From IMG/VR virus record IMGVR_UViG_3300044802_000078, positions 1 through 25,368 of that record: DNA of 25,368 bases, one strand, 5' to 3'. Source of the stretch: a virus. Of the stretch, positions 9,215-25,368 are shown in pieces. Position numbers and translations under genes: made by a program. How positions within the stretch are numbered: the first letter of the stretch is position 1; every line of letters starts with the position of its first letter. Below the pieces are notes generated by a model. It made no database searches. It was not told the DNA's origin and saw nothing but the letters and a program-made list of their open reading frames with translations.

Positions 9215-9621
9215 TGGCATATGAACAGTATGATGATCTTCACTTGCTTGCTCTTTGCGTGTGGCGAGAAGCTAGGGGAGAAGTGAATGATGCCCAACTT
9301 GGAGTTGCCTGTTCTATCCGAAACAGAGTTGATAAGCCTGGCTGGTGGGGAACCGATTATCGATCAGTTATTCTCAAGCCCTGGCAATATTCTTCCTTCA
9401 ATGCCGGCGATCCCAACAGCATCAAGTTTCCTGACGAGACTGATTCTGTATGGCTCCAATGTCTGGAGAATGCTTCGTTGGTGATCAATGGCAACTGCCC
9501 AGACAACACAGATGGGGCCCAGTCTTACTTCGACAAAAGCCTTGACAACAATCCTCCCAAATGGGCAGCAACAATGACCCACACTCTGGACATCGGCAGA
9601 CTACATTTCTACAAGGTATAA
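9214..9621 (+). CDS. SleB-type cell wall hydrolase (endolysin candidate)
   Basis: 135-residue enzyme of the SleB / Hydrolase_2 family, which cleaves the glycan strand of peptidoglycan. Visible family landmarks are LLALCVWREARGE with the presumed catalytic glutamate, VACSIRNRVD, WQYSSFN, and a C-terminal DGAQSYFDKS ... PPKWA ... LDIGRLHFYKV block. It is the length of a single catalytic domain, with no signal peptide, membrane segment or cell-wall-binding repeat. The ATG overlaps the upstream stop (TAATG) with AGGTG five bases before it. Two small membrane proteins follow directly, so the group reads as a lysis cassette; a virion-carried hydrolase for entry is the alternative. Confidence 0.8.
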   Translation: MAYEQYDDLHLLALCVWREARGEVNDAQLGVACSIRNRVDKPGWWGTDYRSVILKPWQYSSFNAGDPNSIKFPDETDSVWLQCLENASLVINGNCPDNTDGAQSYFDKSLDNNPPKWAATMTHTLDIGRLHFYKV

Positions 9622-9622
9622 T

Positions 9623-9877
9623 ATGGAATTCCCGCATCTCAATCTCGACAAAATCCTAACGGATATCTCAGATTACCACGTTGCCGTTGGTGTCCTCGTC
9701 TTCATCACCGGAGCGGTCTTCCAATGGTTCCATCACCTTGATCCGGGCTTCACGGCATTCTGCGGGACGATACTTGGTTTCCTATTCGGACATGGTTGGA
9801 TACAGGCCAAGAATGGAGTAGATGATAGTAAAACAGGAGCACAAGATGGCAACACAGACCACAACGACAAGCACTAA
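9623..9877 (+). CDS. Small two-helix membrane protein, holin candidate
   Basis: 84-residue protein with two hydrophobic segments, about residues 19-36 (HVAVGVLVFITGAVFQWF) and 43-60 (FTAFCGTILGFLFGHGWI), and a short charged, hydrophilic C terminus (DDSKTGAQDGNTDHNDKH). Size, two-helix layout and position immediately after a peptidoglycan hydrolase fit a class II holin, which would form the inner-membrane holes that start lysis. Its end overlaps the next gene by 32 bases. No family signature is visible, so the call rests on topology and context. Confidence 0.6.
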   Translation: MEFPHLNLDKILTDISDYHVAVGVLVFITGAVFQWFHHLDPGFTAFCGTILGFLFGHGWIQAKNGVDDSKTGAQDGNTDHNDKH

Positions 9878-10574
9878 TTGGCTTTCAACGCACTGGACTT
9901 GGGTGCTTTCTCATCTTCTCATCGTAGCACTTATCGGCGGGTTGGTTTGGGGTGCAGTATATGGTGTAGATGCAATGCTCGCCAGACATGATTTGGCGAC
10001 CGAACAGAAGTATGAGTTGATTCTTGCCAAGCAGACCGCAGTAACGAAAGCATTGGAAGATAAGTTGGATGCCGATACTGCCCAGCACGCACAAGAGGCT
10101 CTCGCCTACCAGCAGCAGATAGCCGCTGACCAACAGGCAATGAAACAGCGTGATGCCCTTTTGGCTACGCTCGTTGCCAAAATAGGAACGATGACTCCGG
10201 TTCAGATCCAAGCGGATCTTCAACCAAAGCTCCGCCAAGGAACAGCGACTGCTCTTCCCGATGGCGTGAAGTTGGATACTCCTGCCGCGCGTGATGTGGA
10301 CCAGCAAATAACGGAGGGCGCCAATGCGAAGACAGACCTCGCAGCAGCCAAGACAGATCTTGCGGCAGAAACGAAGATCGCTTCCAATGCCACGGCCGAT
10401 CTGGCAACGGCCAAGCAAGCCATCACCTCCGAGCAAGGAAAGAACGCTGCCCAGGTAAAAGCCTGTGACACTGAGAAAGACACCATCAGATCGGATGCTC
10501 GTAAGAGCAAGACCAAGTGGGCTGCTATTGCTGGTGTTATCGGATTCCTCATTCGGGTAGCAACACACGCTTAA
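9846..10574 (+). CDS. Coiled-coil membrane protein, spanin-like candidate
   Basis: 242-residue protein. I place the start at the ATG at 9846, which has GGAG at 9837-9840, rather than the in-frame ATG at 9822. Residues about 16-38 are a membrane helix (WVLSHLLIVALIGGLVWGAVYG), followed by a long alanine/glutamine/lysine-rich helical region with coiled-coil character, including an internal repeat (AKTDLAAAKTDLAAETK), a single cysteine near 214, and a second hydrophobic segment near the end (AAIAGVIGFLIRVA). The gene overlaps the holin candidate. An inner-membrane spanin (Rz-like) role fits the N-terminal anchor plus periplasmic coiled coil, but the C-terminal hydrophobic segment is not typical. 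No Rz1-like lipoprotein ORF was seen inside it. Confidence 0.55.
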   Translation: MATQTTTTSTNWLSTHWTWVLSHLLIVALIGGLVWGAVYGVDAMLARHDLATEQKYELILAKQTAVTKALEDKLDADTAQHAQEALAYQQQIAADQQAMKQRDALLATLVAKIGTMTPVQIQADLQPKLRQGTATALPDGVKLDTPAARDVDQQITEGANAKTDLAAAKTDLAAETKIASNATADLATAKQAITSEQGKNAAQVKACDTEKDTIRSDARKSKTKWAAIAGVIGFLIRVATHA

Positions 10575-10583
10575 GGAGATTTC

Positions 10584-11543
10584 ATGTTCTACGCAGGCGA
10601 CTATTATAACTTCATCCTGAACATTCCGGCGCTAGGCCCGGGCACCACAACTATTACCAGCCCTTATGTTCTAATCACCGTTCTGGATATTCTGGATCCA
10701 GGCTCACCTATTGTGTCCGGCGCACACATGACACTGGTAGCAGGAACCAGTTATCTCTACTATTATTCCTTTACTGCTCCGAATGCTTCTCCAAAGGACT
10801 ACGTAGCTATTTATAGTTATGCGACTTCCTATGCCGAATCTCTGGGCACAGCAACCGCGGCCACTGATGATAATACCTATGCATCTTTCACATTCCCGCT
10901 GCCTTTGCCGACCAGTTGTGTGCCAGGTGCCTTGCTCACAACGACCGGTTTCACCACAAGTTCTGGTTCCGGAAACTTCAATGTTTCAGGTATACCGATT
11001 AGAACAGTCAACCAGTCTACAGGCGTAGTTGTCTGCGCTGATGCGGGAACATCTATGGTAGTTGGTACCAAGGGAACGGGTTCCATTGCCACAGACGTGA
11101 CGGTTTCGAATCAGTCTATCTCATTGACTGACCATCTGCACATTGGCGATTCTTATATCACAGGCCAAGTGGCTTTGAATGCTACAGTGGCCCAAAACTC
11201 CACAGTAGCCAAGGATGCAACAGTCTTCAAATCGTCTCAATGGGTAGCCCCTCAAAACGACCCATTGGTACAAACTATCAATACCGCCGTCCAGACAATC
11301 TTCACCAACAGCAATACCGAGATCGTTCTCCTTGGCACTTTGGCCGAGGGTACGCTATCTGGTTTGATTCAGGACATCTACGATAACTTATTTGGAACCT
11401 GGACAATCGATCAGACTGTCAGTCCTCCTATTCTCTACATAAATAGGGTTGGCGGAGGGAACATTGCCAGCTTCCAGCTCATCAATAACGCTTCTACCAC
11501 ACAGCGTAACGTGCTTACGCACCCGCCGGAAAGCAGCGTGTAA
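10584..11543 (+). CDS. Virion structural protein with N-terminal beta domain
   Basis: 319-residue protein, strong SD (AAGGAG) before the ATG. Residues about 1-90 look like a beta-sandwich (PYVLITVLDILDPGSPIVSG, LYYYSFTAP) of the sort found at the start of phage fibre and baseplate-wing proteins; the collagen-like protein at 12875 has a comparable beginning. Residues about 185-225 contain short spaced repeats (ALNATVAQNSTVAKDATVF) that could form a trimeric rod. The last ~80 residues include a compact domain (LFGTWTIDQ, PPILYINRVGGGNIASFQL) often seen in phage surface proteins. No enzyme motif. A fibre or host-contact protein is likely, not proven. Confidence 0.55.
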   Translation: MFYAGDYYNFILNIPALGPGTTTITSPYVLITVLDILDPGSPIVSGAHMTLVAGTSYLYYYSFTAPNASPKDYVAIYSYATSYAESLGTATAATDDNTYASFTFPLPLPTSCVPGALLTTTGFTTSSGSGNFNVSGIPIRTVNQSTGVVVCADAGTSMVVGTKGTGSIATDVTVSNQSISLTDHLHIGDSYITGQVALNATVAQNSTVAKDATVFKSSQWVAPQNDPLVQTINTAVQTIFTNSNTEIVLLGTLAEGTLSGLIQDIYDNLFGTWTIDQTVSPPILYINRVGGGNIASFQLINNASTTQRNVLTHPPESSV

Positions 11544-11557
11544 TCCAAGTAAAATCC

Positions 11558-11609
11558 ATCTCTTCATAGTCTTGGCTAGTCTCTATACTAACCAGGAATA
11601 TGAAGAGGT
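11558..11609 (+). other. Long near-perfect hairpin between genes
   Basis: The strand folds on itself over 23 paired positions with a 6-base loop (11581-11586). The outer arms ATCTCTTCATA (11558-11568) and TATGAAGAGGT (11599-11609) pair with one G-U; the inner arms (11570-11580 with 11587-11597) pair with one G-U and one C-A mismatch; one G-A mismatch separates the two parts. There is no T-run after it, so it is not a standard terminator. It ends 15 bases before the next start codon, and the right arm contains the 15-base motif that recurs at 14534. Confidence 0.7.
11583..11597 (+). repeat. 15-base motif shared with 14534-14548 (copy 1)
   Basis: CTATACTAACCAGGA occurs here and at 14534-14548, both times in the short gap upstream of a gene start (28 and 19 bases from the ATG). 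TATACT inside it resembles a -10 element, but no good -35 is present at either copy. In this copy the motif is the right arm of a hairpin. Confidence 0.5.
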
Positions 11610-11624
11610 CTGTCTAGGTGGACT

Positions 11625-12389
11625 ATGTCCGTAAATACAGTTGTGACCGTTCAACTTCCTGAAGGCTTTGCATTGACCAGCGGCGCCAAGCTGAGGGAGC
11701 CAATGCAGTTTCAGGTGATTTCCGGTTTATCGCCCTACTATTCAACCGTCGACTTGGTTAGACTGAATGGCGGTATCTATCTTCGTAAAGTCACCGACAT
11801 TACGATTGCCAGTATGATCTACTATAACAGCAAGCAAGCCGATGCTTTGACTTGGTCGCTGCCGATGATACCTCCTTCTTATGCCCCGTTCACCGACTTC
11901 CAGGAAGTCCATTTCAGGAACTTCCTCATGGCGCGCGTGAATTGGGTGACATTTCAGTCAGCTCAGCAGCTGATCCTGAATATGTTCGATTTGAACGCCG
12001 TCCGCGGCAGCAAGACTCTAGCCAACTTCTCTGTAAGCCGGCAGGACTTCTCCAATGATAGTGGCGTTCCTGGCAAGCTAAAGGATTTGAAACAACAGGT
12101 AAATGACTGGGAGCTCGCCCTGAAGAGCGGTGGTAATATCGGCCATAAAGGCCATGTCAAGCCGCGTATGGCAGCCAAGGGTCTCTATGACGACAGCGAT
12201 AACACGCCAGGTCGTACGTGGTTGAACTCTGGTCCCGGCGCAAATACTTACTCGATGACCGGCGTCAGTTCGGCTGGCGGTAGAAGTAAGACAGTCAAGT
12301 TCTACTCACCTGTTGTGGTGGGTAATAGGATTGGACGCTATTTTGGGCCGACTGTTTTGGTCACATGGCCTAGAGTTCCCTCTTACTAA
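11625..12389 (+). CDS. Hypothetical phage protein, neck/head region
   Basis: 254-residue protein with AGGTGG shortly before the ATG. The first half is mixed alpha/beta (FALTSGAKLREPMQFQV, LNGGIYLRKVTDI, WVTFQSAQQLILNMFDLN), residues about 145-170 are helical and charged, and the last 80 residues are glycine/serine/tyrosine-rich and basic (NSGPGANTYSMTG, GGRSKTVKFYSP). No family is recognised, and no signal peptide or convincing membrane helix is present. It stands alone between a long hairpin and a coiled-coil membrane protein gene. Position among neck and fibre genes makes a virion role likely, but that is inference. Confidence 0.55.
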   Translation: MSVNTVVTVQLPEGFALTSGAKLREPMQFQVISGLSPYYSTVDLVRLNGGIYLRKVTDITIASMIYYNSKQADALTWSLPMIPPSYAPFTDFQEVHFRNFLMARVNWVTFQSAQQLILNMFDLNAVRGSKTLANFSVSRQDFSNDSGVPGKLKDLKQQVNDWELALKSGGNIGHKGHVKPRMAAKGLYDDSDNTPGRTWLNSGPGANTYSMTGVSSAGGRSKTVKFYSPVVVGNRIGRYFGPTVLVTWPRVPSY

Positions 12390-12412
12390 GTCTAGAGTTC
12401 AAAGGAACCATT

Positions 12413-12850
12413 ATGCTTTTTGCAGATCCCACATTCTGGGACAGCATCAGTACCCACATTCCCATCGTAGGCTGGACATTCCTCTGCGCTTGCATAGGTT
12501 TTTGCTCTCGCTTGGTTTGGAAAATGCGTGGGGCAGTTGATGATTTTGTTGCCGGCCAAGCAGCTGACCGCGAGCTGGCAAAGAAGACCCTGGAGACCCT
12601 GGAAGCGGCCAAGAAGGCAGCCATGGAAGAGGTAGAGAAAGCCACAGCCCATGGAGAAGAGAAAGCCAATGAGTTGAGACAGAAGATTGAAGACAATCAG
12701 GCTGCTCTCACTATGATCAGTTCTAATCACCTTGCCCATATAGAGAAAGATATGATGGAGATGAATGGCAAGCAGGATAAAGTGATCGACCTGCTCTTCA
12801 ACATGGATAAGAGTCTAGCCATCCTCGTGGATAGAAGCGAGAGAAAATAA
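12413..12850 (+). CDS. N-terminally anchored coiled-coil protein
   Basis: 145-residue protein with AAAGGA before the ATG. Residues about 15-36 form one membrane helix (THIPIVGWTFLCACIGFCSR) followed by a basic residue run, then a long charged helix (residues about 55-110, rich in A, E and K) with coiled-coil heptads, and a C-terminal helical part. The layout, one N-terminal anchor plus a coiled coil, is the layout of inner-membrane spanins and of some phage membrane-fusion or DNA-injection helpers. It is separated from the lysis cassette by two genes, so lysis is only one option. No known family was recognised. Confidence 0.55.
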   Translation: MLFADPTFWDSISTHIPIVGWTFLCACIGFCSRLVWKMRGAVDDFVAGQAADRELAKKTLETLEAAKKAAMEEVEKATAHGEEKANELRQKIEDNQAALTMISSNHLAHIEKDMMEMNGKQDKVIDLLFNMDKSLAILVDRSERK

Positions 12851-12874: not shown

Positions 12875-13885
12875 ATGTCAATTGAATCCACAGACGTCTT
12901 TACAATTAATCAGAACTATCCGACACCAGACGCCCTTCTAGTTCCCGGTTCCAATCCAGAATCCTACACTGTCTTTATCTACAAATATTTGGATTGGTCG
13001 ATTGGACATCAGGATACTTCCTTTGCCATAGCGCAAAGCGACGTCAATACGGACGGCACCTGGAAAGGTGTGCTTGACCCATACACGCAGCTTTACTCTC
13101 CTATTATCCTCTCCACAGTAGAAGAAGATGGTTCTCCTGCCTCCCCTTTCACTGTAGTAGCAATCAGCTATACAACTAAGATAGTTCTTGGATTAAAAGT
13201 AGCCGGACCTGCACCCACTCCCACGGGTGTGGGTGTAACTTCCTTGGATGGTCTGGAAGGTGATCTTACTTTTGTTGAAGGTCCAGGTATAACTATAACA
13301 CCTTCTGGCAGTACAATCACTGTTTCATCTGGTGGTTTTACGGGAGCAACCGGTGCCACTGGTTCAACGGGCTCTACAGGACCTTCAGGCGGCCCTCCAG
13401 GTCCAACTGGTCCAACTGGTGTCATAGGTCCCACAGGACCTACAGGTTCAGGGATTACCGGACCAACAGGTTCTATTGGACCAACAGGTGCTACTGGGTC
13501 ATCGGGTGGTCCTCTTGGACCAACAGGCCCCACAGGATCAACTGGTTCGACCGGCCCTGCAGGACCAACAGGTGCAACAGGCACGACAGGTGTTACTGGA
13601 CCTACAGGCGCAATCTTTGGACGAGTTATAGTATCTGGTTCCACCTATCAAACTGGGGCTTCGGATGTTGGTAAAGCTCTTGATCTGCAAGCATCGACTC
13701 CTGCACTTGTTACATTAGGTGCGACTGGCACAAACTTTACAGGATGGATCCAGAATAACACTCTGTATCCGGCAGTGATTAAAAGAGTAAGTGGTCTCAT
13801 CAATGGCGAACCTGATATTCAGCTTGCTTCGGGAGATGGCTGCACGATTTGTGATGACGGTACAGATGCGACAGCAGTGATGTAA
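12875..13885 (+). CDS. Collagen-like fibre protein
   Basis: 336-residue protein. Residues about 1-110 form a beta-rich head. Residues 119-152 hold a fibre signature ([20 protein letters not shown] followed by a short beta segment). Residues about 154-246 are Gly-X-Y collagen-like repeats rich in GPTG and GATG with a few breaks (SGGPPG, GSGITG), predicted to make a trimeric triple helix. The C-terminal ~90 residues form a beta-rich tip ([20 protein letters not shown]) with a cysteine pair at CTIC. Proteins with this order, head, collagen stalk, tip, are typical phage fibres or whiskers. The SD-like GAGGAAG is about 14 bases from the ATG, longer than usual. Confidence 0.75.
13334..13614 (+). 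repeat. Collagen-like Gly-X-Y coding repeat
   Basis: Imperfect 9-base repeats around GGACCAACAGG and its synonyms encode the Gly-X-Y stalk of the fibre protein. The DNA is degenerate at third positions, so the repeat is kept at protein level. It is a likely site for copy-number change by slippage or recombination. Confidence 0.85.
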
Positions 13886-13895
13886 AGGGATCTAT

Positions 13896-14519
13896 ATGGC
13901 AGAAACAATCATCAATAAATCTTATACCTACAATCAAACCCCTTTCTCCAAGCCTGTCCATGGGTCCTCCGAAGATACTATGTATCCAGAGATGACTTCC
14001 TTCGATCTACGAGAGTGGTTTGAATGGACCATGTTGGGGAATTTCGAGGATCCTGGCATCGCACGCCCGGCTGTATACAGAAAGCTATCGAATACACATT
14101 GTACTTGCTATGATGCCTTGGGCGGCTCTCCCGACCCCAACTGCGTCTATTGCAATGGAGAGGGTTACCTCTTTACTGAAGAAATCAAGATGGTTTACTT
14201 TGCCAAGAACTTTGGCTCGGTCCTGGGTAGTTCTACCCAGATCAGCCAACAAAGCCAGCTGGCGCCATATGGCGTAACAGATGCCAACCGCTGCCTGGCT
14301 TTCATGTTCTGGTATGATATACCGGACTATGAGCGCTATTCGATTCCTACCCGGCCGGCCCCAGATAAGCTCTTTGAGCTGAAAACCTTGCCGGATGGCA
14401 GTATGGACCCCAGCCAGATTAGAACGGAGGAATGGCGTGTCAGGTCAGCCACCGCCCACCACGGAGATAATGGCAGAGTTGAATTCTTCGAGCTGGGCTG
14501 TGAAAAGGTATCTGTTTAA
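13896..14519 (+). CDS. Zinc-binding neck/virion protein candidate
   Basis: 207-residue protein, SD AAGGGA six to seven bases before the ATG. It has a four-cysteine cluster (C69, C71, C83, C86) in HCTCYDALGGSPDPNCVYC followed by NGEGYLF, the CxC...CxxCxGxG zinc-ribbon-like pattern found in several tailed-phage neck and tail-completion proteins. Flanking regions are beta-rich with a helical segment near 37-50. Order in the genome, just before a tail-terminator candidate and the sheath, supports a head-tail connector or closure role, which I infer from context. Zinc binding is inferred from cysteine spacing. Confidence 0.6.
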   Translation: MAETIINKSYTYNQTPFSKPVHGSSEDTMYPEMTSFDLREWFEWTMLGNFEDPGIARPAVYRKLSNTHCTCYDALGGSPDPNCVYCNGEGYLFTEEIKMVYFAKNFGSVLGSSTQISQQSQLAPYGVTDANRCLAFMFWYDIPDYERYSIPTRPAPDKLFELKTLPDGSMDPSQIRTEEWRVRSATAHHGDNGRVEFFELGCEKVSV

Positions 14520-14533
14520 GGATAAGCGAATTA

Positions 14534-14548
14534 CTATACTAACCAGGA
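14534..14548 (+). repeat. 15-base motif shared with 11583-11597 (copy 2)
   Basis: CTATACTAACCAGGA, identical to copy 1, ends 18 bases upstream of the ATG at 14567. Unlike copy 1 it has no complementary partner nearby, so the shared element is not explained by hairpin formation. Confidence 0.5.
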
Positions 14549-14566
14549 TGGAATGAGGTGCGTTTG

Positions 14567-15259
14567 ATGGGCGAGCTGAACGAGGCACATCAGCCTAAGT
14601 ATTTGACCCGCACGCCATTACCGGCCGTCGATTGGGCAACTTTCTTTGACGCTGTTAATGAGGCGATGAAGTTGCACTTGGAGACCTACGGGCCTCCTGG
14701 TCGAAAGGCACCTATTTTGGTAGCCGAAGTTCCCAAGACAAATGAGGGGAATTTCGATACCAGTTTTGATCCTATCTTGTTCAAGATCATGGAGTCCAAG
14801 AGGGCTGGTACTGATCCTAGCGGCAGACGCAGGATTCCTAAGGGCCCCACAGTTCGGGAAGTCAAGCCTCATCCAACCAAGGAACGCTATCATATAATGA
14901 CCCTTGGCTGGTGGGAGTTGATGAAGGTTCGATTCATCATTTATGCTCTGTCCGCGGACCGGGCAGGTGAAGTCACAAATTGGTTTCACCGCATGATGAT
15001 GAGATACACTTTTGATCTCGACTTCTTCAAAGCTCGCGGCGTACACTATCTGACGTACGAGGGACGTGGGGAAGATCAATTTTCGCGGGAGTACGGACAG
15101 GAACTCTATATCCGTAATCTCGATTACAATGTTCGCTTAGAACTATTAGAGAACTTCGAAGTCAAAGACATCGAGTCTCTGAATATCAAGATTGGCGGAC
15201 CTCCGAATCCACAATTGGAAGTGGATTTGGACGAAGAATATATTATTCCTAAGCCGTAA
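14567..15259 (+). CDS. Tail terminator / neck protein candidate
   Basis: 230-residue protein. GAGGTG at 14555-14560 serves best as the SD for the ATG at 14567; a GTG at 14558, inside that SD, and a TTG at 14564 are poorer starts. Helical N terminus (DWATFFDAVNEAMKLHLETY), then a conserved-looking central beta/alpha region (RYHIMTLGWWELMKVRFIIY, AGEVTNWFHRMMMRYTFD) and a C-terminal beta region with acidic end. Myovirus genes in this position, directly before the sheath, usually encode the tail terminator or tail completion protein. I see no motif that proves the family, so the call rests on gene order and fold impression. Confidence 0.5.
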   Translation: MGELNEAHQPKYLTRTPLPAVDWATFFDAVNEAMKLHLETYGPPGRKAPILVAEVPKTNEGNFDTSFDPILFKIMESKRAGTDPSGRRRIPKGPTVREVKPHPTKERYHIMTLGWWELMKVRFIIYALSADRAGEVTNWFHRMMMRYTFDLDFFKARGVHYLTYEGRGEDQFSREYGQELYIRNLDYNVRLELLENFEVKDIESLNIKIGGPPNPQLEVDLDEEYIIPKP

Positions 15260-15279
15260 AGAAACTTCCGGAGGGAAAG

Positions 15280-18078
15280 ATGTCTTTCACTTTTGCAAAC
15301 TTACCGGGTGTGCAGGTTGCTACCGTAGACGGTGGTCTGGCAGCTGTTAATACCCCTACAACTAAGTCAGTCATGGTCCTGGGTACCTCCGCGATCGGAC
15401 CAGCCAATACACCTTATCAGGTGATTAGCCTCGCCACAGCAGCCAAGCTTTTTGGACTGAATGGTACCTTGGTTCGCGGCATGTCGGAAGCTTCGGCATA
15501 CAGCGATAATGTTTTCCTGTTCCGCGTGGGTGCTGCTCAGGGAACATTTGCTGTCGGTTCTACAAGCCCAGATGTAGGCACTACGAACCTGATACACTCG
15601 GCATCTAGCTTAGGTGGTTTAATCACCTATAGTCTGGGTGCTATAGCTCCTAGCGGTGATGTTACAATCGGCGCTCCAGTTTCAATTACTGGATTCGCTA
15701 ACACCGAATTCAACAGCCCAGGCAATCCTGGCGGCAATACCTACATCGTTTCCTTTGTAGGTTCTACATACTTCCAAGTTCAAGCTCCGAGCGGCACTGT
15801 GGCAGACGCAACAGAAGGCGTCTACGCAGATAATTACGCGCGTAGCACTGACTTCTCGGTACTTACCACATGCACCTTTGCATCGTCTGGTGGCGTTGCC
15901 ACTGTGCATTATGTTGGCGCACCTCCGATAGGAATCGTAGCTGGTGATATCGTTACTACAGATTCATTGGCTGGAACTCCTTCCCCTGATGCTAGCGCAG
16001 ATGGTCTATTCACGGTAGTGAGCAAGAGTGCACATGATCTTGTAATGACGCCGATCGATTTCGTTCTGGTTCCTTTTGCTACCAGCACACTGTCGGGTGG
16101 TACTCTTACTGCTGGCGCCATTACGATGACAGTATCAGGCACCAATACAGCCACTTTGAGTTATGCGGCTGCTCAGCCAGCTTATGCACCAGCAGGTCTA
16201 AAGGCTGGTGACAAGGTTGTTCTGGCATCCTTGGCTGATGCGGCTGCGGATATCGCAGCTGATTGGGATAACACCTATACTGTAACCAGCAATATTGGTT
16301 CCAGCTTGGTTCTTTCCAAGACTGGTTTGACCAATGGTGGTCCAAAGACCTTAATTGCAGGTACTCTCTCTTCTTATGCACAGAATAACGGTCATCTGAT
16401 CATTCCTGCTCAGGATGGCTACAATGTAACCCTTGGTCAGGTTGATGCTACGGATAATGTGCGTTACAAGATTTGGTTCAAGACCGGTGGCGGTACAGCA
16501 CCGAGCCTTCTGTCCATCTGGTTAGACAACAATCTGGTATATTCGAATGACCCATCGTACACCGTTAATACCGGTGATTGCGAAGTTCTTGGCAGCACAA
16601 CCGGTGGTACTGATGTCGGCGACCCGGCAGCAGATATACTAGCAAACGCTGTTACGATTGCTGCAGCCGGCGGGCTTATTACCTATGTGGCCCCGCAGAC
16701 TGGAATTGGTCTGACCGCCCGTCAGCTTTATATTGCCATTCAGAATGCAATGAATTTGCTGCAGGGCTTCCCGATCGACGAAGTTTATCTCCCGGGTAGC
16801 TTGCTTGGTAACGTAGGTGCTCTTGCGGACAACCCGAACGTAGCATTCTATGTGCCGGCAACTCCATCAACATTGGTCAACAACCCAGCAGTCAATATAC
16901 AAGCTCTTGACTGGCTGTGGACTGGCATCGATGTTGACGGCAATCCTATCTATCAGTGGGCATCGGAAAATAAGTTCTGGCTCTGGAACAACCAGCCTGC
17001 AGCAACATACACACTGCAAGGCCAGGGTTCTCCAACCACACCTATAGTAGAAGTCTTCACTGATCCTACAACTCGTTTGGCAGCCGGCGTCGGTTCTGGC
17101 AACTTGCAGCCCGAAGGCTTCCATGAAGTCAATTTTGCTTATCAGCTGGCTCGCTTCTGCGCAGCCCAGTCTGAAGCTCCTCAAGCCGATAACGGCGGAT
17201 GCCTTGGCTTCATTGGCACCAGTGGACCTGCAAGTCTCAGTGACTTCTCTCTGCCTGCTGTGAAGCGTTGGATCGGTTATCTGCCTGTTTATGATCCTAC
17301 TTCAGGCGGTGCAACAGTATCTGGAGCCGGTTTGCTCGGTATTCCATTCCTCGTTGGCTGCTCGATTGACAGCTTGAATGATGCTTGCGCTGAACAAGGC
17401 GTTGCTTCATTCCGTGTTCCTGGACTGTTCTCTTCGGTTTCCGGTGAATATGATGGTGGTCCTGAAATCGATGCTAACGGCTATAAGATTGATGACGGTG
17501 CTTACATTGCCGTGCAGGGTGATTATGCTCTGCAATCCAATGGCTACGGCACATACGTTGGCAATATTGCCGGCTTAGTAGCTGGCTTGGTCAGCTCGCT
17601 CGACCAATTGAATTCTGTTACGAATAAACAGGTTGCTAGCGTGTCGCAGCTCTATCGCGCCAGCCTCAACCAACTTGATGCTCTTACCTTTGCGGACGTT
17701 GATATGCTTCGCTTCAAGGGTACAGGCGCTCTGCCGGTTTGCCTGCACGATAAGACTGCAGCCACAACCGCATCCGATTATACTTTGATGCTGCGTCAAC
17801 GCATCAAGTTCCTCGTTATTCAGACATTGCTCGCCGAAGCCAACAACTACATTGGCAAGGGTACGAACGATGGTCTGACTTTGACAGCCTTGAAGACAGC
17901 TCTCGATGCCGATTGCTCGAATCTCCAAAAGCGCGGTTATCTGTCGAGCTACAACTTCACGATCACCTCAACAAAGGCCCAGCAGAAGATCGGTCAGGCC
18001 TCGATTCAAATCAGCTTCGTTCCTGCTAACGAACTGGTTCAGCTCAATGCCACAATCGGCATCAACCTGAACGGTTAA
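15280..18078 (+). CDS. Tail sheath protein
   Basis: 932-residue contractile-tail sheath subunit. The N terminus (NLPGVQVATVDGG, VMVLGTSAIGPANTPYQVIS) and C terminus (DYTLMLRQRIKFLVIQTL, LQKRGYLSSYNFTITSTKAQ, IQISFVPANELVQLN) match the conserved ends of sheath proteins, and residues about 720-810 carry the middle domain (DDGAYIAVQGDYAL, GTYVGNIAGLVAGLVS). Residues about 95-370 are a large insertion of small beta modules (GGVATVHYVG...GLFTVVSKS and TATLSYAAAQ...NTYTVTSN) related to those in the capsid-associated protein at 2652. Sheaths are more often 400-700 residues, so the insert explains the size and should be exposed on the tail surface. SD GGAGGG precedes the ATG. It fixes the phage as a myovirus. 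Confidence 0.9.
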   Translation: MSFTFANLPGVQVATVDGGLAAVNTPTTKSVMVLGTSAIGPANTPYQVISLATAAKLFGLNGTLVRGMSEASAYSDNVFLFRVGAAQGTFAVGSTSPDVGTTNLIHSASSLGGLITYSLGAIAPSGDVTIGAPVSITGFANTEFNSPGNPGGNTYIVSFVGSTYFQVQAPSGTVADATEGVYADNYARSTDFSVLTTCTFASSGGVATVHYVGAPPIGIVAGDIVTTDSLAGTPSPDASADGLFTVVSKSAHDLVMTPIDFVLVPFATSTLSGGTLTAGAITMTVSGTNTATLSYAAAQPAYAPAGLKAGDKVVLASLADAAADIAADWDNTYTVTSNIGSSLVLSKTGLTNGGPKTLIAGTLSSYAQNNGHLIIPAQDGYNVTLGQVDATDNVRYKIWFKTGGGTAPSLLSIWLDNNLVYSNDPSYTVNTGDCEVLGSTTGGTDVGDPAADILANAVTIAAAGGLITYVAPQTGIGLTARQLYIAIQNAMNLLQGFPIDEVYLPGSLLGNVGALADNPNVAFYVPATPSTLVNNPAVNIQALDWLWTGIDVDGNPIYQWASENKFWLWNNQPAATYTLQGQGSPTTPIVEVFTDPTTRLAAGVGSGNLQPEGFHEVNFAYQLARFCAAQSEAPQADNGGCLGFIGTSGPASLSDFSLPAVKRWIGYLPVYDPTSGGATVSGAGLLGIPFLVGCSIDSLNDACAEQGVASFRVPGLFSSVSGEYDGGPEIDANGYKIDDGAYIAVQGDYALQSNGYGTYVGNIAGLVAGLVSSLDQLNSVTNKQVASVSQLYRASLNQLDALTFADVDMLRFKGTGALPVCLHDKTAATTASDYTLMLRQRIKFLVIQTLLAEANNYIGKGTNDGLTLTALKTALDADCSNLQKRGYLSSYNFTITSTKAQQKIGQASIQISFVPANELVQLNATIGINLNG

Positions 18079-18090
18079 TAAATCCGTCTG

Positions 18091-18119
18091 GGGGACGGTT
18101 TCCTAAAGCGACCGTCCCC
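18091..18119 (+). terminator. Strong stem-loop after the sheath gene
   Basis: GGGGACGGT (18091-18099) and ACCGTCCCC (18111-18119) form a 9-bp GC-rich stem with an 11-base loop, 12 bases after the sheath stop. No T-run follows, so it may be an attenuator or mRNA-stabilising 3' hairpin rather than a full terminator. Confidence 0.45.
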
Positions 18120-18140
18120 TGGAACATCCCTCAGAAATAT

Positions 18141-18153
18141 CTCCTCCCAGGAG
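18141..18153 (+). promoter_or_regulatory. Hairpin that covers the tube gene SD
   Basis: CTCCT at 18141-18145 pairs with AGGAG at 18149-18153 across a 3-base CCC loop. AGGAG is the SD for the ATG at 18164 (10-base spacing), so the fold would hide the ribosome site. It is short and may simply melt under ribosomes. Confidence 0.4.
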
Positions 18154-18163
18154 TCATAACAAC

Positions 18164-18859
18164 ATGGCAATCAATATTGGCGGTAGCTCTCTCGAAAGCG
18201 AAATCGCCCGTTCCTACAACTCGTTCTCCGGCTCGGATATTCGAGCAGTCATCGGCAACATCCCGTTCGCCGAGATCCAGGCGATCAGCTACAGCGTTAC
18301 CCGCGAAAAGGCGCCTATCTACACGATGGGATCTCCCGATCCTCGTTCATTTAGCCGTAATAAGCGCGGTGTTGCTGGCTCGCTGGTTTGGGTCAATTTC
18401 GATCGTCACGCTCTCTTGAACGTGATCTACAAAGCATTCGGAACGTTCGTAGCTAACGTCGATGACGTTAAAGCTGCGTTCAATCCAGCTCAAGAACAAA
18501 TCATCAGTCAAACAGCTGTCTTTACTTCCTCCCTCGGCCGTCCAGTACCTATTCCTCTCCCAACGACAGTTGATGCTGCTGATGTACCGATCAACAGTGT
18601 ATCTGGGTTTAAAATGGAAGCCACTCCTTGGTATTCCGACCAGATCCTTCCCTTCGACATCACACTTGCTGCCACGAGTGAATATGGCGCAGCAAGCACG
18701 ATGAAGGTTTTCGGTGTTGAAATCCTGAACGAAGGTTCAGGCGTCAGCATCGATGACGCGGTGACCGAGATGCAGACAACGTGGGTTGCTCGTCTCGTTG
18801 AACCATGGCAAGCTGTACAAACTGCCTTCCCAGATCTCTCCGGTCAGGGTGGTAGCTAA
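18164..18859 (+). CDS. Tail tube protein (paralogue 1)
   Basis: 231-residue protein directly after the sheath. Its core starts at about residue 20 (SFSGSDIRAVIGNIPFAE) and runs through AISYSVTREKAPIYTMG, RGVAGSLVWVNFDRHALL and LPFDITLAATSEYGA ... MKVFGVEILNEGSGVSIDD. The same landmarks, in the same order, occur in the next two genes, so this is the shortest and least decorated member of a three-gene family. Length and position fit the main tail tube subunit, which forms the inner tube through which DNA passes. It has hairpins on both sides, including a strong terminator after it, consistent with separate, high-level expression. The alternative is that one of the paralogues is the main tube. 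Confidence 0.75.
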   Translation: MAINIGGSSLESEIARSYNSFSGSDIRAVIGNIPFAEIQAISYSVTREKAPIYTMGSPDPRSFSRNKRGVAGSLVWVNFDRHALLNVIYKAFGTFVANVDDVKAAFNPAQEQIISQTAVFTSSLGRPVPIPLPTTVDAADVPINSVSGFKMEATPWYSDQILPFDITLAATSEYGAASTMKVFGVEILNEGSGVSIDDAVTEMQTTWVARLVEPWQAVQTAFPDLSGQGGS

Positions 18860-18892
18860 AAGTCAGGCAATAATTATTAGTTAATCCCTCCT

Positions 18893-18928
18893 AGGCTGCT
18901 TGGTGCTGGAAGCGCCGGGCAGCCTTTT
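18893..18928 (+). terminator. Intrinsic terminator after tube paralogue 1
   Basis: AGGCTGC (18893-18899) pairs with GCAGCCT (18919-18925), and inside it GGTGCT (18902-18907) pairs with AGCGCC (18911-18916, one G-U pair) across a 3-base loop; a TT/GG internal loop divides the two. TTTTGCTTT follows directly. This is the clearest intrinsic terminator in the window. Confidence 0.85.
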
Positions 18929-18946
18929 GCTTTATCCCTCCCTCTT

Positions 18947-19939
18947 ATGTCCATACCTTCCCTCAGTTTGGTTACAAACGGGCTGAATCCAGATCTCAAC
19001 GGCAAACAAGTATCCTTGATTGATGCCGGTCTGGATGATTTATCACTGCCTCAGCTTGGGGCTCTGGACTCATCCCCGGCTCTAATAGCATCGCAAGGGC
19101 AATCTATTGCCGCGGGTTTGGTAGCACAAGGCCAGATACCTCCACAAGCGGTAGGATCAGCTGTAGGAGCTGCTACTGGGATCCCAATTGGTCCTAATCT
19201 TCCGCTACCCAATCTGAATAATATTCTCCCTAATCTTCTTCCTGCACCTGGGATCAGTCCTTTCAATCCTGCCGGCTCGGTGGCCCAGGAATTAACGACA
19301 GATGCCGCTAGCTATACAGGTTCGGATCTGCGGATTGTTGTGGATCTGGTGGATACCAGCACTGCCTCCCAGACAGCCCCTCAATTGAAGCAATTAATTG
19401 AATGCACTACATTCACGATTTCGATACATAGAGAGAAGGCTGCTGTCCGCGCGGCTGGTTATATCAATCCCAAGGGCTTTGCCCGCGGGCGCCGCACGAT
19501 AGCAGGCACGATAGTTCTCACTCAATATACTGTGGATGTCCTATATAACTTCCTCAAGGGACAGAACTTATCTGCCCACGATCTATCCAAGGATACAACC
19601 TACACCAAAGTCGATCAGCTCCCGGCCTTCAATATGACCTTGCTCTTTACCAATGAATACGGTAATGTGAGTTATCGCAGAGTATTGGGAGTTGAGTTCG
19701 TTACGGATGGTGTAGTTTATTCGACCAACGATATGCTGGCCGAGCAAACAATCAGCTATATGGCAGCTGACTTCACGCCACTGTTAGATCTGGCTTCTGG
19801 TCCTATCTTCCATGCCAATATCACTAGCCAGGTGTTTGCTCCGGAACGCACTGTTCAAACAGTTCTATCCAATACAAAGCAGCAAAACGCCGTCCCTTCC
19901 ACGAATATCTACTCGCCCAGCGGTACTAATCTGAGTTAA
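18947..19939 (+). CDS. Tail tube-like protein (paralogue 2) with N-terminal extension
   Basis: 330-residue protein. Residues about 1-118 are a low-complexity extension rich in L, P, N and G (PNLPLPNLNNILPNLLPAPG). From about 122 the tube-like core appears: SYTGSDLRIVVDLV, FTISIHREKAAVRAAG, PKGFARGRRTIAGTIVLTQY, LPAFNMTLLFTNEYG, RVLGVEFVTDG and a final TISYMAADFTPL. These match the landmarks of the gene at 18164. No SD is visible before the ATG, and a terminator ends only 18 bases upstream, so how it is transcribed and translated is unclear. Candidate roles are a tube-initiating, tube-terminating or baseplate-hub-proximal ring. Confidence 0.7.
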   Translation: MSIPSLSLVTNGLNPDLNGKQVSLIDAGLDDLSLPQLGALDSSPALIASQGQSIAAGLVAQGQIPPQAVGSAVGAATGIPIGPNLPLPNLNNILPNLLPAPGISPFNPAGSVAQELTTDAASYTGSDLRIVVDLVDTSTASQTAPQLKQLIECTTFTISIHREKAAVRAAGYINPKGFARGRRTIAGTIVLTQYTVDVLYNFLKGQNLSAHDLSKDTTYTKVDQLPAFNMTLLFTNEYGNVSYRRVLGVEFVTDGVVYSTNDMLAEQTISYMAADFTPLLDLASGPIFHANITSQVFAPERTVQTVLSNTKQQNAVPSTNIYSPSGTNLS

Positions 19940-19941
19940 GA

Positions 19942-21276
19942 ATGGCACTTTACACACCAATCACATTGATAGTTACGGATGTCTCCACTAATGCTCCTAT
20001 CGCAGGGGCTAAGGTGTATATCAATGGCTCAGCGAACTTCGATCCAACTCAGTTCACCGTAGTCACGGATGCCAGCGGACGTGCGTCTTTCCAGATTCTA
20101 ACGAGTCCCACGGCCGTATTGATGCAGGTTGGGGCTGATACCTATCAATCCAATAGCACACCCTTGCTGGTCAATTCAACCAACCCTCAGACACAGCAGA
20201 TTACGCTTGCTCCTAATCCCCAGCAATCTGCATCCTTGACCTTCCAGTTTACTCCTGCTGTAGCGGGTATTGTATGGAATCTTAGTAGTCCTGTGACGGC
20301 AACAGGCGTTAGCACACCCGATGGAACGTCATCCACGTCTACGGCCATTCCTTTTGGCTCGTATTCGATGACGGCATCCTTATCGGGCTATCAAACCCTG
20401 GTTACCACTATTGTTGTTAATGGCCAGACCAGTCCCTATCCTTTGGTCCTGGTCAAAAATAACGACCCAAGCACTATTCAGACTGGTACCACTACCAGCA
20501 ATTCTTCACAAGGCACTTCCCAGCCTGCCAGTATAGTCAGCCAGGTATCAACAGCAGCTCCGGATCAATCTGAATACATCTACCCAAATAGCGAGTATGA
20601 TAAGTACTTTACGATTGCCGGCGCGCGCATCTATATAGGCAACCTGTTCATCGATGAGTTAAGCTCTATCCAGTATACCCTCCAGGATAACGCCATCCCT
20701 GTTTATGGGTATGCCAGCCGCTACGCGGATGCTTATGCCCAAGGTCATTCCTTGGTCCAGGGTCAGCTCGCCATTAACTTCGTGACGGAAGGATATCTGT
20801 ATACAGTTATGAAGGAGTATAATAGGCTTCTGAGCTCAACGCAAAGCACAGCTTTCCCTATTAACAGTCCCCAGGCTAATACGGTTGCTCAGATTCTCGG
20901 AATGATGACTACCCGAGACGCCTTGATACAACAGGCTAATAATAATCCTAACAACAGTACATCAGGAGCACAAGCTGATAAGCTGCAAACAGCCATCAAT
21001 GCGCTTCAGCAAGGCCTGACCTCGGATCAAATGAAGGCATTGTCGACTCTGCGCAACAAGCAACTGAATGTCATCCCGGATGCAGTTGGCTTTGATAATG
21101 CCGTCTATCAGGATGTCCTGTTCGACATCCGGATAGAGATGGGTAATGAAGTGACTGGGGTAAAACGAGTTCGATACATCGAAAAGTGCAAGCTGATATC
21201 CAATGAGCAGATCATCGCTCCCGACGGGCAGTCGCTGATGGACTCTTATGGATTTATCGCAAGGAGACTTAGATAA
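19942..21276 (+). CDS. Tail tube-like protein (paralogue 3) with Ig-like N terminus
   Basis: 444-residue protein starting two bases after the previous stop. Residues about 1-90 look like a carboxypeptidase-regulatory-like beta domain (NAPIAGAKVYINGS, VTDASGRASFQI). Residues about 97-172 look like a PEGA-type domain (IPFGSYSMTASLSGYQTLVT). A Ser/Thr linker follows, then the tube-like core from about 222: YFTIAGARIYIGNLFIDELS, IQYTLQDNAIPVYGYA, HSLVQGQLAINFVTEGYLY and, after a variable Gln/Asn-rich loop, VLFDIRIEMGNEVTGVKRVR. Its stop overlaps the next ATG as TAATG. A decorated tail tube or baseplate-end ring is likely; exact position in the tail is not known. Confidence 0.7.
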   Translation: MALYTPITLIVTDVSTNAPIAGAKVYINGSANFDPTQFTVVTDASGRASFQILTSPTAVLMQVGADTYQSNSTPLLVNSTNPQTQQITLAPNPQQSASLTFQFTPAVAGIVWNLSSPVTATGVSTPDGTSSTSTAIPFGSYSMTASLSGYQTLVTTIVVNGQTSPYPLVLVKNNDPSTIQTGTTTSNSSQGTSQPASIVSQVSTAAPDQSEYIYPNSEYDKYFTIAGARIYIGNLFIDELSSIQYTLQDNAIPVYGYASRYADAYAQGHSLVQGQLAINFVTEGYLYTVMKEYNRLLSSTQSTAFPINSPQANTVAQILGMMTTRDALIQQANNNPNNSTSGAQADKLQTAINALQQGLTSDQMKALSTLRNKQLNVIPDAVGFDNAVYQDVLFDIRIEMGNEVTGVKRVRYIEKCKLISNEQIIAPDGQSLMDSYGFIARRLR

Positions 21277-21502: not shown

Positions 21503-21955
21503 ATGACAAACGAAGTAGCAACACCCGCAACAGAAACCCCAGCTCCCAATAAAACAATGACCCCACAAGAATTCCTGGCTAGTCTGCCTGGCGGCCCAAC
21601 ACCGGACCAGATTGCTGCCTGGAAGGCTCAAGCTCCGGCCAATAGGATCGAGTTACTGGCGATGCCTGATGGCAAGCGTGCTTGGATTGGACGTGGCTTG
21701 ACCGGGCTTGAATTGACTCAAATCCAAAAGCAGGTCCAACAGATTCAGGGCGCTTCCGATCCTGATCTGGAAATGCAGATCGCATCTGTCGTCAAGGCTA
21801 CACTTTGGTGTAATTTTGGCGTGAACGGCAAGCTAACAGATGTGGTCCTTCGCACTGGCACTGCCGGCCTTCCTACTACCTTGTTCACCAAGGTAACCAA
21901 ACTGTCGGACTTCCTAGATCCCCAAACGATCGAAATGCTGTCTGCCGAGCTGTAA
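21503..21955 (+). CDS. Tail assembly chaperone candidate 1
   Basis: 150-residue protein with a clear SD (AGGAG) before the ATG. It begins with a Pro/Thr-rich disordered stretch, then RIELLAMPDGKRAWIGRGLT and LELTQIQKQVQQIQG, followed by a helical region with SVVKATLWCNF and a C-terminal KLSDFLDPQTIEMLSAEL. That order, between tube genes and a giant tape-measure-position gene, matches the first of the two tail assembly chaperones (G/GT or gp-like pairs), which hold the tape measure during tail building. The TAA stop is separated from the next ATG by one codon (TCA) in the same frame, so no frameshift is needed or visible. Confidence 0.65.
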   Translation: MTNEVATPATETPAPNKTMTPQEFLASLPGGPTPDQIAAWKAQAPANRIELLAMPDGKRAWIGRGLTGLELTQIQKQVQQIQGASDPDLEMQIASVVKATLWCNFGVNGKLTDVVLRTGTAGLPTTLFTKVTKLSDFLDPQTIEMLSAEL

Positions 21956-21958
21956 TCA

Positions 21959-22570
21959 ATGACAACTAGGGCCGCAACTTGGCCCAGTGGGGTACGTGTA
22001 GTCTGGCGATCCCTTACCTGGGGTGAGTTCCGGGAGATCCGCGCGATTCAGGCTACTCCCGCTGAGCGAGCTCTGGTTGTGTATCAAACCTGCCTGGTAG
22101 AAGGACCTCCTCCGGAACTTATATTAGCAGGTATCATGATGTGGATCTGTATGGATGAGCTGGAGAATTCTCCCTTCTCCGGCTCATTCCAAAACCTTTC
22201 CCTGCCACTGGAAGAATCCCGGAACAAAATCAGATCCAATTATCTCTTATCAGCACAAGCTTTCATAGCCTCTGTCTTCAAGATACCTTTCGAAGACATG
22301 AATGACTGGGATGCTGATACTCTGCTCACCCGCCTGGCACAAGCCGAGTTTGTTAGTGGTGTTCCTCTCAATCCAGTAGATCCTAAAACTAAGAAAACCA
22401 ACAAGAAGGCTCCCCGACCAAGCAAACTGACTGAAACCCAGAGAAAGGTCATGGAGAGATCACACCCTGAAGCTGTCAGCTATAACACAAAGGATGTAAT
22501 CGATCACGGAGAACAGCCCTCCCAACTGAGAGAAACAGAAAGATCGGAGACTTTTACATATACAAGATGA
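21959..22570 (+). CDS. Tail assembly chaperone candidate 2
   Basis: 203-residue protein in the same frame as the gene before it, TAA-TCA-ATG apart. The N-terminal two-thirds are helical (VRVVWRSLTWGEFREIRAIQ, AERALVVYQTCLVEGPPPEL, NYLLSAQAFIASVF); the last 70 residues are basic and disordered (DPKTKKTNKKAPRPSKLTET). Helical core plus a charged tail suits the second tail chaperone. There is no strong SD before the ATG, so translation may depend on coupling to the upstream gene or on stop read-through. Its TGA overlaps the next gene as ATGA. Confidence 0.6.
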   Translation: MTTRAATWPSGVRVVWRSLTWGEFREIRAIQATPAERALVVYQTCLVEGPPPELILAGIMMWICMDELENSPFSGSFQNLSLPLEESRNKIRSNYLLSAQAFIASVFKIPFEDMNDWDADTLLTRLAQAEFVSGVPLNPVDPKTKKTNKKAPRPSKLTETQRKVMERSHPEAVSYNTKDVIDHGEQPSQLRETERSETFTYTR

Positions 22571-22892: not shown

Positions 22893-25368
22893 ATGGCTGC
22901 CTCCTTCAACAAACCGTTCTTCCATGTTATAGACGTGGAAACCACAGGCCGGTCTCCAGGTCATAGACAAACCGGTCTCTTCCAGATTTATGCCTCAAAT
23001 CTCCCTCCTTATCAAGGTGCTTTGCCTTGGGATCCTCGTACTTTTGTCAAGCCCTCCCCGGGCTATGTAGATCCCCGTACCAGTCAATTCACCCCCTTCA
23101 CATTCAACTATGAAAAAGGCGAACCCGTTCTTCGGGCCGCCCGTAAGCTAGGTGTGTCTAGTGAAGAGGAATCAGCTCGTATCTTCTTTGAAGCTGCTTC
23201 AAAGTTCGAAGAACAGCGTGACATTTTCAAACGCACTGCCCGGATCAACACGCAAGCTGTGCCAGGACGTCGTTTTATCTTTGCTGGCTGGAATCCAGAA
23301 TATGACAAAGGTGTGCTTGAAGAAATAGCTCAACGCTATCCCAGTTTGGAACAGTATCGTGGATTCTTCAAGCGCCCGGGCGTAAGCGTATTACATCTTG
23401 AAAAGCCATTCCTTGACCTGGCTTTCATGTATGGGCAGGAGAATCCGGAATTCGCTCGTCGTTATTTCCGTATGGCAGCCAGCACGCCGATCGGCAAGGG
23501 TGTTGGCCCAGGTGCGATACCAAAATCCCCAGGAGAAATGCGCTATGTCTCCGGCTGGGGATTGGAGAATGTCGTCCGCGCAGCCGGCGGTCAGGAACGC
23601 CTGATCGGTATTGGCGCGCAGCACCATGAAGCTGTCGCTGACGTCAGACTTGAAGAGCAACTCTTCGAGCGATCCCGCACAGCTAAGAAGCTTGTCGGCC
23701 GTGGCTATTCTTTTGATGTGGCTATGCGCTCTGCCGGCCTACTGGCAGAAGGCGAGACAGCAGAAACATTCTTCACCAAGACCTATGCTAGCGAATGGAG
23801 CAAGCGTTTAGCCCAGCAAGCTGAAAGAGGTATTGCTCTAAAGCCTCCCACAGCTAACCGTTTTGCTGGGGCAGCTACTAAAGTTCTATTAGTCGCTGCG
23901 GCTGCCACCGCGGCTTATGCTATCGCGCACAGCAAGCGTGAAGATCGACAGACCAGCATCACCGGTTTAAGCGATACTGGTTTATCGGCCAAGCTACGTC
24001 ATGAAACTACAGACTTCGGTTCCGGCTGGCAAGGACAGGATAACCGCACCAAGCAACTGGCTGAGACTCTCCTTACGGGTGCGGCCGTCTTTGCTGCTCA
24101 TAAATGGGCTACTGCTAACTGGGCCGGCTATGCTGAAGGTGTCTATCGCACCCTCAAGATAATAGAGGAACGCTCTCCATCCGAACTATTCCGCACGTTT
24201 GGTCTGTCTCAGCTTCAATCCAGTTACCTGGTCAACGAAGTATTCCTTCGCCCAGAACAATTGATCTATGGTACTTCGCTAACAGCAACCGGCGAACATA
24301 TCCAGCGTCTGACGGGCTTGAATCCTTTGGACTTCAAGCGGGGAATGCAGTTCCGCCGTGCATCCAAGTACTCAGCTTATCTTGAATTGGAAGGCAAGCC
24401 TGGTGTTGCGGTTCGCTTTGCTGAGCGCGGAAGACTGACCGGCGCCTCGGCTCGTTATGGTGGAGAACTTTATGAACCTCTGCCTGGGCGAACATCTGCC
24501 AGTTCAGTTTACGGGGAGTTCAAGGATCTATTCCGCCAGCGCCAGAGACGTCAGGAACCACGTAGCCCTCTAACAAAGAGAGGGGCTTTCGTCTTTGAAG
24601 CCGGCGGTGAGAAGCGTCTATATGAGCCTCTCTTTGGACAGCGTGCTGGCCTTATTGGCAGAATGCAATCTGCCTTTGAGAAGGGTGAGCGCGTAGCCTT
24701 TGAATGGGCTGAGCGTCCTCTGCGCTTACTCGCCAACATTGGTATGGGTCTCGAGCAAGGGACCTATAATAAGCTCTTTCATATCCCCGTCATCGGGGAA
24801 GGAGGCATGCTCAATCAGCTGATGCTGAAAAGAGTGTTGCCTGCTTATCTTGCTGTTACAGCCGCTCGTTACATCAACTACCAGCTGGGGAATAGGCCGG
24901 CCGAGATCGCTGCTGGCATTCCTCTCAAGGCCAAAGTTGCCTGGGCTGAAGCTACAGACAAGATTCCAGGTCTCCGTGAATTGACTGACAAGTATGCGGA
25001 GATAGTTCCCGGCCCACAATATGGTCCATTAGCCTTGCCTATTGCTGGCGGTGCTATCGGTGCTTTTGCACATTATGCATCCGTAGCACGTGGTACAATC
25101 ACTTACGGCGCGCGTGCTGCTCGTGTCAAGGCTGCCCGCTTGGCATTCCGTAAGGGAGCTCTGATCGGCGGCTTAGCGATGCTGCCTTTGCTCCCAGGCA
25201 TGATCGGCAGCCGTCAGACGGCAGACGAACTCCGCAGGATTTATTCCGGTGAGCAGGAAGTACCTATTCGTGCAGGTCGTTGGTGGGATGTAGGGTCTAC
25301 TCCATTCCGCGGCGGGCGCATCAAGTACTTCCGTCAACACTGGTATCCATTGATGCAATCCAAGGCGG
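22893..25368 (+). CDS. Giant protein with N-terminal DEDDh exonuclease domain, tape-measure position (3' partial)
   Basis: Open frame of 825 codons with no stop, running off the window. Start is the ATG at 22893; no good SD is visible. Residues 1-258 contain the DEDDh 3'-5' exonuclease set: FFHVIDVETTG (D14, E16), FAGWNPEYDKGVL (D138) and GIGAQHHEAVADVRLEEQLF (H245, D250). Later segments include hydrophobic runs near 326-345, 390-408, 713-731 and 754-772 with basic stretches between, and a final RWWDVGSTPFRGGRIKYFRQ block. No cysteine occurs in the visible part. Position right after the tail chaperones is where the tape measure normally lies, and length plus hydrophobic segments agree. A virion protein delivered with the DNA is the alternative. 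I recognise the nuclease motifs but not the rest. Confidence 0.75.
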   Translation, partial: MAASFNKPFFHVIDVETTGRSPGHRQTGLFQIYASNLPPYQGALPWDPRTFVKPSPGYVDPRTSQFTPFTFNYEKGEPVLRAARKLGVSSEEESARIFFEAASKFEEQRDIFKRTARINTQAVPGRRFIFAGWNPEYDKGVLEEIAQRYPSLEQYRGFFKRPGVSVLHLEKPFLDLAFMYGQENPEFARRYFRMAASTPIGKGVGPGAIPKSPGEMRYVSGWGLENVVRAAGGQERLIGIGAQHHEAVADVRLEEQLFERSRTAKKLVGRGYSFDVAMRSAGLLAEGETAETFFTKTYASEWSKRLAQQAERGIALKPPTANRFAGAATKVLLVAAAATAAYAIAHSKREDRQTSITGLSDTGLSAKLRHETTDFGSGWQGQDNRTKQLAETLLTGAAVFAAHKWATANWAGYAEGVYRTLKIIEERSPSELFRTFGLSQLQSSYLVNEVFLRPEQLIYGTSLTATGEHIQRLTGLNPLDFKRGMQFRRASKYSAYLELEGKPGVAVRFAERGRLTGASARYGGELYEPLPGRTSASSVYGEFKDLFRQRQRRQEPRSPLTKRGAFVFEAGGEKRLYEPLFGQRAGLIGRMQSAFEKGERVAFEWAERPLRLLANIGMGLEQGTYNKLFHIPVIGEGGMLNQLMLKRVLPAYLAVTAARYINYQLGNRPAEIAAGIPLKAKVAWAEATDKIPGLRELTDKYAEIVPGPQYGPLALPIAGGAIGAFAHYASVARGTITYGARAARVKAARLAFRKGALIGGLAMLPLLPGMIGSRQTADELRRIYSGEQEVPIRAGRWWDVGSTPFRGGRIKYFRQHWYPLMQSKA

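Follow-up and report, generated by a model that had tools for sequence, protein, structure and literature searches.

Gene A, an open reading frame that runs off the right-hand end of a 25,368-base linear viral record (the window, analysed here at its full length), encodes on sequence evidence a two-part protein, in which an N-terminal module of ~383 residues precedes a virion-protein core that begins at residue ~385. The module (residues 1 to ~383) comprises, in order, a DEDDh-type 3'-5' exonuclease domain, a hydrophobic segment and a motif of ~35 residues that ends in TDFGSG, hereafter the FGSG motif. A sequence-only reading of the same DNA had claimed that an exonuclease domain and a giant tail-module protein share one reading frame, and the sequence supports this. 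Because the pair of exonuclease and motif is fused to a large tail gene here and forms a separate protein in relatives, the data suggest that a group of giant phages carries nucleases in the particle and injects them with the genome. The reading we favour, with a probability of about 0.5, is that the gene A module is a virion cargo nuclease, a separate protein elsewhere, that has been fused to a tail protein and is delivered at infection.

No stop codon interrupts gene A from its ATG at 22893 to the end of the window (Table 1), and the earlier description of an ORF of more than 825 residues leaving the window at the right is thus borne out. A second in-frame ATG upstream, at 22857, falls within the preceding gene, and the relatives L086 and L095 both have an ATG at the site aligned with 22893. 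The complete gene A of L086, a 215-kb contig, spans 7727-12652 and encodes 1641 residues. An assembly chimera of the window contig is ruled out because the fusion of exonuclease and gene A recurs in L085/L086, two contigs identical across the compared stretch, and the gene A of L095 also opens with the exonuclease.

Table 1. Features of gene A and of the genes upstream of it in the window.
Feature	Position	Strand	Basis or remark
Tail sheath protein	15280..18078	+	phrog_16991, E 1.3e-42
Tail tube-type protein	18164..18859	+	
Tail tube-type protein	18947..19939	+	
Third tube-type protein, CarboxypepD_reg domain	19942..21276	+	
First tail-chaperone-position gene	21503..21955	+	Position only; place of ME3_33 'putative tail chaperonin'
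Second tail-chaperone-position gene	21959..22570	+	Position only; same order in L086, ME3 and KLEB27-3
IscA/ErpA-like A-type Fe-S carrier, 106 aa	22567..22887	+	PF01521
Gene A as present	22893..25367	+	ORF and start codon; 825 of about 1640 residues
DEDDh exonuclease domain, gene A residues 1-275	22893..23717	+	Motifs, alignment, profile comparison
Motif I, D14/E16	22932-22940	+	
Motif II, D138	23304-23306	+	
Motif III, H245/D250	23625-23642	+	
Hydrophobic segment, residues 327-345 (AATKVLLVAAAATAAYAIA)	23871..23927	+	Also in L086 at 314-332
FGSG motif, residues 347-382 (SKREDRQTSITGLSDTGLSAKLRHETTDFGSGWQGQ)	23931..24038	+	E 2.0e-20
Gene A core, residues 385-825, ended by the contig end	24045..25367	+	orf145/ME3_35-like virion protein; hhalign, tblastn

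Gene A had been described as following the tail chaperones, which holds by position; however, the IscA-like gene separates it from the two chaperone-position genes. The carrier cysteines (Cys 34, 98 and 100) are kept in the IscA-like proteins of the window and L086, and such a gene occupies the same place at L086:7401-7721 and in L095 near 9648-9993. The carrier might be connected with a tail protein that has an Fe-S cluster. In MTATph1, an annotated S-adenosylmethionine decarboxylase gene (L004:6947-7303) lies between two tail tube-type genes. The tube-type protein at 18164-18859 and its relatives carry the PHROGs label 'major head protein' (phrog_9206); this label looks wrong in view of the position among tube genes and of the name 'tail tube protein' given in KLEB27-3. 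The conserved C-terminal motif and eight tube proteins were also aligned, but the sequences diverge too far for these alignments to be used as search queries.

The DEDDh exonuclease domain is established by sequence comparison at several levels. The five catalytic residues listed in the sequence-only reading (D14, E16, D138, H245 and D250) were all located at the head of the ORF, distributed over three motifs of which the third is of the H-x4-D form. Their spacing was reproduced in none of 20,000 shuffles of gene A residues 1-305, which rules out a chance occurrence, and was found in 9 of 1,929 ORFs of related loci, all nine being proteins treated here or near-duplicates of them. All five residues are kept in L086, which is ~55% identical to the window over the domain, and are invariant in a six-row alignment whose four outer rows are 18-21% identical to the window. 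A profile built from four independent exonucleases (L103, L104, L114 and L117), with the window and L086 left out, picked up the domain of L086 (E 2e-5) and, only weakly, that of the window (E 0.42). Profile-profile comparison of window plus L086 against the same four gave 98.0% (E 1.5e-12, residues 3-276), compared with ≤0.1% for six controls (four other pieces of gene A, the sheath and a tube protein).

Comparison with known exonucleases, as the sequence-only reading had proposed, succeeded through the four-relative profile, which matched the solved DEDDh enzymes 9mrd (3.4e-11), DnaQ 8h18 (8.8e-7) and Cas2-DEDDh (2.9e-6), but not with the profile of window plus L086 alone, which matched no DEDDh structure in the PDB profile search. 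The window protein by itself had no match in Pfam, PHROGs or the PDB by sequence; as single queries, the exonuclease domain against public phages and the window protein against viral contigs found nothing. The link of the window to DEDDh enzymes therefore runs through the wider family. Two AlphaFold models were both too weak (mean pLDDT 45.5 and 51.6) to confirm the RNase H-like fold predicted for the domain; the 31 best PDB matches of the second (pTM 0.51) were all RNase T, followed by DnaQ, at non-significant E values of at least 0.035. The domain shares the D-E-D-h-D motifs I-III and a family-level profile similarity with RNase T, DnaQ epsilon, the PolC exonuclease and Cas2-DEDDh. Unlike them, it is ~280 residues long, has insertions between the motifs and is joined to a giant tail-module protein.

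The C-terminal boundary of the module is drawn by the relatives L087 and L018, whose gene A has no counterpart of the first ~390 residues and can be aligned with what follows them. Instead of a module on gene A, L087 and L018/L019 have separate FGSG-motif proteins, encoded next to the large terminase and to small Gly/Ala-rich proteins: G002 (724 aa), whose exonuclease motifs have decayed, and G012 (1076 aa), whose start is of the DEDDh type. The L086 genome has a single FGSG site, on gene A, and none near the terminase. Since the motif protein is separate in L087 and L018/L019 but part of gene A in L086, fusion or relocation of the module is proposed. Many of the stand-alone FGSG proteins have a ~270-residue protein on one side and, on the other, small Gly/Ala-rich proteins with the terminase after them; terminase and portal genes beside these proteins were named by reading sequences rather than by family search.

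A scan for the FGSG motif found 23 loci. Among FGSG proteins, counted as those of at least 700 residues carrying FGSG[WYF] with fused gene A copies included, an N-terminal DxE[TA]xG is present in 12 of 21; of 111 other large ORFs, 1 has it. The Fisher p of this difference, 1e-10, is too small because the sequences share ancestry. By Pfam, several of these proteins also have other enzyme domains, either kinase-like or SNase, the latter in L006, L101, L105, L111 and L114 (E 7e-15 to 4e-12), and those of L103 and L114 have more than one enzyme domain. The gene A of L005, L006 and L027 also bears the FGSG motif, and the truncated gene A of L009 begins with a DIETSD sequence. In L027, gene A (13051-20283) additionally shows an intein-like insertion (PF14890, PF14528) and, ahead of its DEDDh domain, a PD-(D/E)XK-like stretch recognised by eye and lacking Pfam confirmation. 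Some copies may be inactive, as the stand-alone relatives L102 and L112 have lost motif I and the stand-alone L101, L105 and L120 have glutamate in place of the motif II aspartate; the subgroup with this glutamate (QNLxFE, HNAIFE) comprises L101:1860-6425, L105:7865-14122, L120:4094-7324 and the L027 gene A. When bacterial and archaeal genomes were scanned for the FGSG motif, no relative came to light, no phage record of the collection matches the stand-alone proteins of L103 and L105, no FGSG module is detectable in ME3, and no Pfam or PHROGs family spans the motif of the window protein.

By homology, the core of gene A is a member of the orf145/ME3_35 virion protein family, which belongs to the jumbo-myophage lineage of Bacillus phage 0305phi8-36 and Acinetobacter phage ME3. 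In hhalign comparisons it matched gene A 71-596 of L087 plus L018 at 99.9% (E 6.6e-32) and ME3_35, over part of its length, at 99.3% (E 2.8e-20). The annotation of ME3_35 cites homology to YP_001429636.1, a virion structural protein of 0305phi8-36, and KLEB27-3 gp031 is annotated 'structural protein'; through these homologues, gene A would be present in the particle. ME3_35 and YP_001429636.1 (the latter compared via the ME3 annotation) share with gene A the place past the chaperones and before the tape-measure slot as well as a homologous core; unlike gene A, ME3_35 has neither the exonuclease nor the FGSG motif. The ME3 hub protein, ME3_37, is annotated as homologous to YP_001429638.1. These two homologies place the ME3 protein between ME3_35 and ME3_37 at the position of orf146, the orf numbers being matched to accessions by what we infer from the accession series. 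For 0305phi8-36, orf146 was tentatively assigned as the tape measure by its authors, mainly from tail length (PMC2147016).

The sequence-only reading had put the exonuclease protein in the tape-measure slot. By synteny gene A lies after the tail chaperones and before that slot, with the downstream side known from L086 only, and a separate giant gene stands at the orf146 position in L086, ME3 and KLEB27-3. In L086 this gene encodes 1589 residues and is followed directly by the hub-position gene; the slot assigned earlier is therefore one gene off. A separate tape measure downstream of a protein that is a non-virion enzyme had been named as the finding that would speak against the earlier proposal; the giant gene of L086 supplies the first half in part, as a gene of a relative and under the tentative assignment, whereas the non-virion half is improbable. 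It is unlikely, though compatible with cargo delivery, that gene A is itself the tape measure and bears an exonuclease domain. In favour are its place as the first of the giant genes past the chaperone-position genes, the hydrophobic segments reported in the sequence-only reading (confirmed at residues 327-345 and 755-773), and an assignment of the next gene in 0305phi8-36 that leans mainly on tail length; against this stand the orf145 position of gene A by homology and synteny and the additional giant gene before the L086 hub.

Exonuclease domains on giant tail-module proteins are not unique to the window. KLEB27-3, MTATph1, L091, L092/L046 and L017 carry a DEDDh-type domain, of a subgroup distinct from that of gene A, on the next giant gene, so that there are at least two architectures in the lineage, in addition to the stand-alone proteins. 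The MTATph1 domain matches PF00929 above its cut-off, and the domain-bearing KLEB27-3 gp034 is annotated 'structural protein'. Bacillus phage KLEB27-3 gp034 and Moorella phage MTATph1 CDS0027 thus resemble gene A as DEDDh-bearing giant tail-module proteins of the same lineage; they differ in having the domain in the tape-measure-slot gene, in a separate subgroup and without the FGSG motif. The giant gene past gene A also has a DxDxD motif, which in KLEB27-3 reads NRYPT...KADYDGD and resembles the catalytic loop of RNA polymerase beta', at L003:19298-26602, L086:12723-17492, L087:12357-16628, L018:16539-20450, L091:13225-20165, L092:13216-20165 and L002:17352-22163. This gene may encode a virion RNA polymerase like that of P23-45; the KLEB27-3 copy matched Pfam PF00623 at E 0.015 only, and a PDB profile search with the gene gave no match. 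A stretch of the ME3 hub protein (L002:22179-29168) resembles a staphylococcal nuclease domain (GDTLDV...RVAGLDTPET) and is possibly another nuclease on a tail protein.

If the gene A module is a virion cargo nuclease, it would be built into the particle as part of gene A and pass into the cell together with the genome, where the exonuclease, predicted to be active from its five catalytic residues, would work on nucleic acid early in infection. Most likely it would attack 3' ends, of DNA or RNA that is either the host's or competing. Being part of gene A would take the place of the loading route by which the stand-alone protein enters the particle. The hydrophobic segment could instead be a sign that the protein inserts into a membrane and that the enzyme does not pass into the cell. 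A role as proofreading subunit of the phage polymerase is argued against because the family-A polymerase of L086, encoded ~100 kb from gene A, has its own 3'-5' exonuclease domain.

The exonuclease might alternatively act on the phage's own DNA in the virion or during assembly, trimming or holding the end that enters the tail or clearing the tail lumen. The location of the module on a protein encoded beside the tape-measure slot, and of stand-alone versions beside terminase and portal genes, would fit such a role, but it leaves the SNase and kinase-like domains of other FGSG proteins unexplained, and ME3 is viable with no detectable module; we regard it as unlikely. Proteolytic processing is common among giant phage proteins, and a linker and hydrophobic segment lie between domain and core, which would suit a domain that is active only in the producing cell and is then cut off gene A as a non-virion enzyme. 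Such an enzyme would need no fusion to a tail protein, however, and the L086 polymerase already has an exonuclease domain, making this alternative improbable. Retention of the fold for DNA or protein docking in the tail, with no catalysis, recalls the loss of motif I in L102 and L112 but is the least probable of these alternatives given the five residues kept in the window, L086 and four distant relatives.

Delivery of the gene A module as virion cargo would have a precedent in Thermus phage P23-45, whose gp96 combines a tape measure with a virion RNA polymerase, as experiments showed (PMC10770324). It is likewise a virion-carried enzyme joined to a giant tail protein; it differs in that the enzyme is a polymerase, that domain and gene are unrelated to gene A, and that gene A is known here from sequence. 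The polyvalent proteins of phages and conjugative elements are large, multidomain, late-gene-encoded proteins that combine unrelated enzymes and are predicted to be injected (PMC5512222). Gene A shares their late-gene, virion-protein context, and the window protein has one recognisable enzyme domain where polyvalent proteins have several. The recurrence of nucleases and kinase-like domains on FGSG proteins beside virion genes would fit the injected-enzyme theme of that work, whose main text mentions exonuclease once and DnaQ, SNase and tape measure not at all (PMC5512222). In the open-access literature, no description of a tail protein bearing a DEDDh exonuclease was found, subscription papers lying outside the scope.

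More tentatively, the FGSG motif and the hydrophobic segment before it could be a loading or ejection tag that a jumbo-phage group uses for interchangeable cargo enzymes, with tag and cargo fused to a tail protein in some lineages; we consider this possible but doubtful, and hold as tentatively that the cargo set would then comprise DEDDh, SNase, PD-(D/E)XK-like and kinase-like domains. Virion-carried enzymes shape the first minutes of infection, yet only a small number have been characterised well. Because some phages have the nuclease module fused to a tail protein and others have it as a separate protein, it is a natural experiment on cargo loading, and the FGSG motif is searchable and thereby offers a route to more such enzymes. 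If the motif is indeed a tag, it would by itself predict injected enzymes across uncultured phages.
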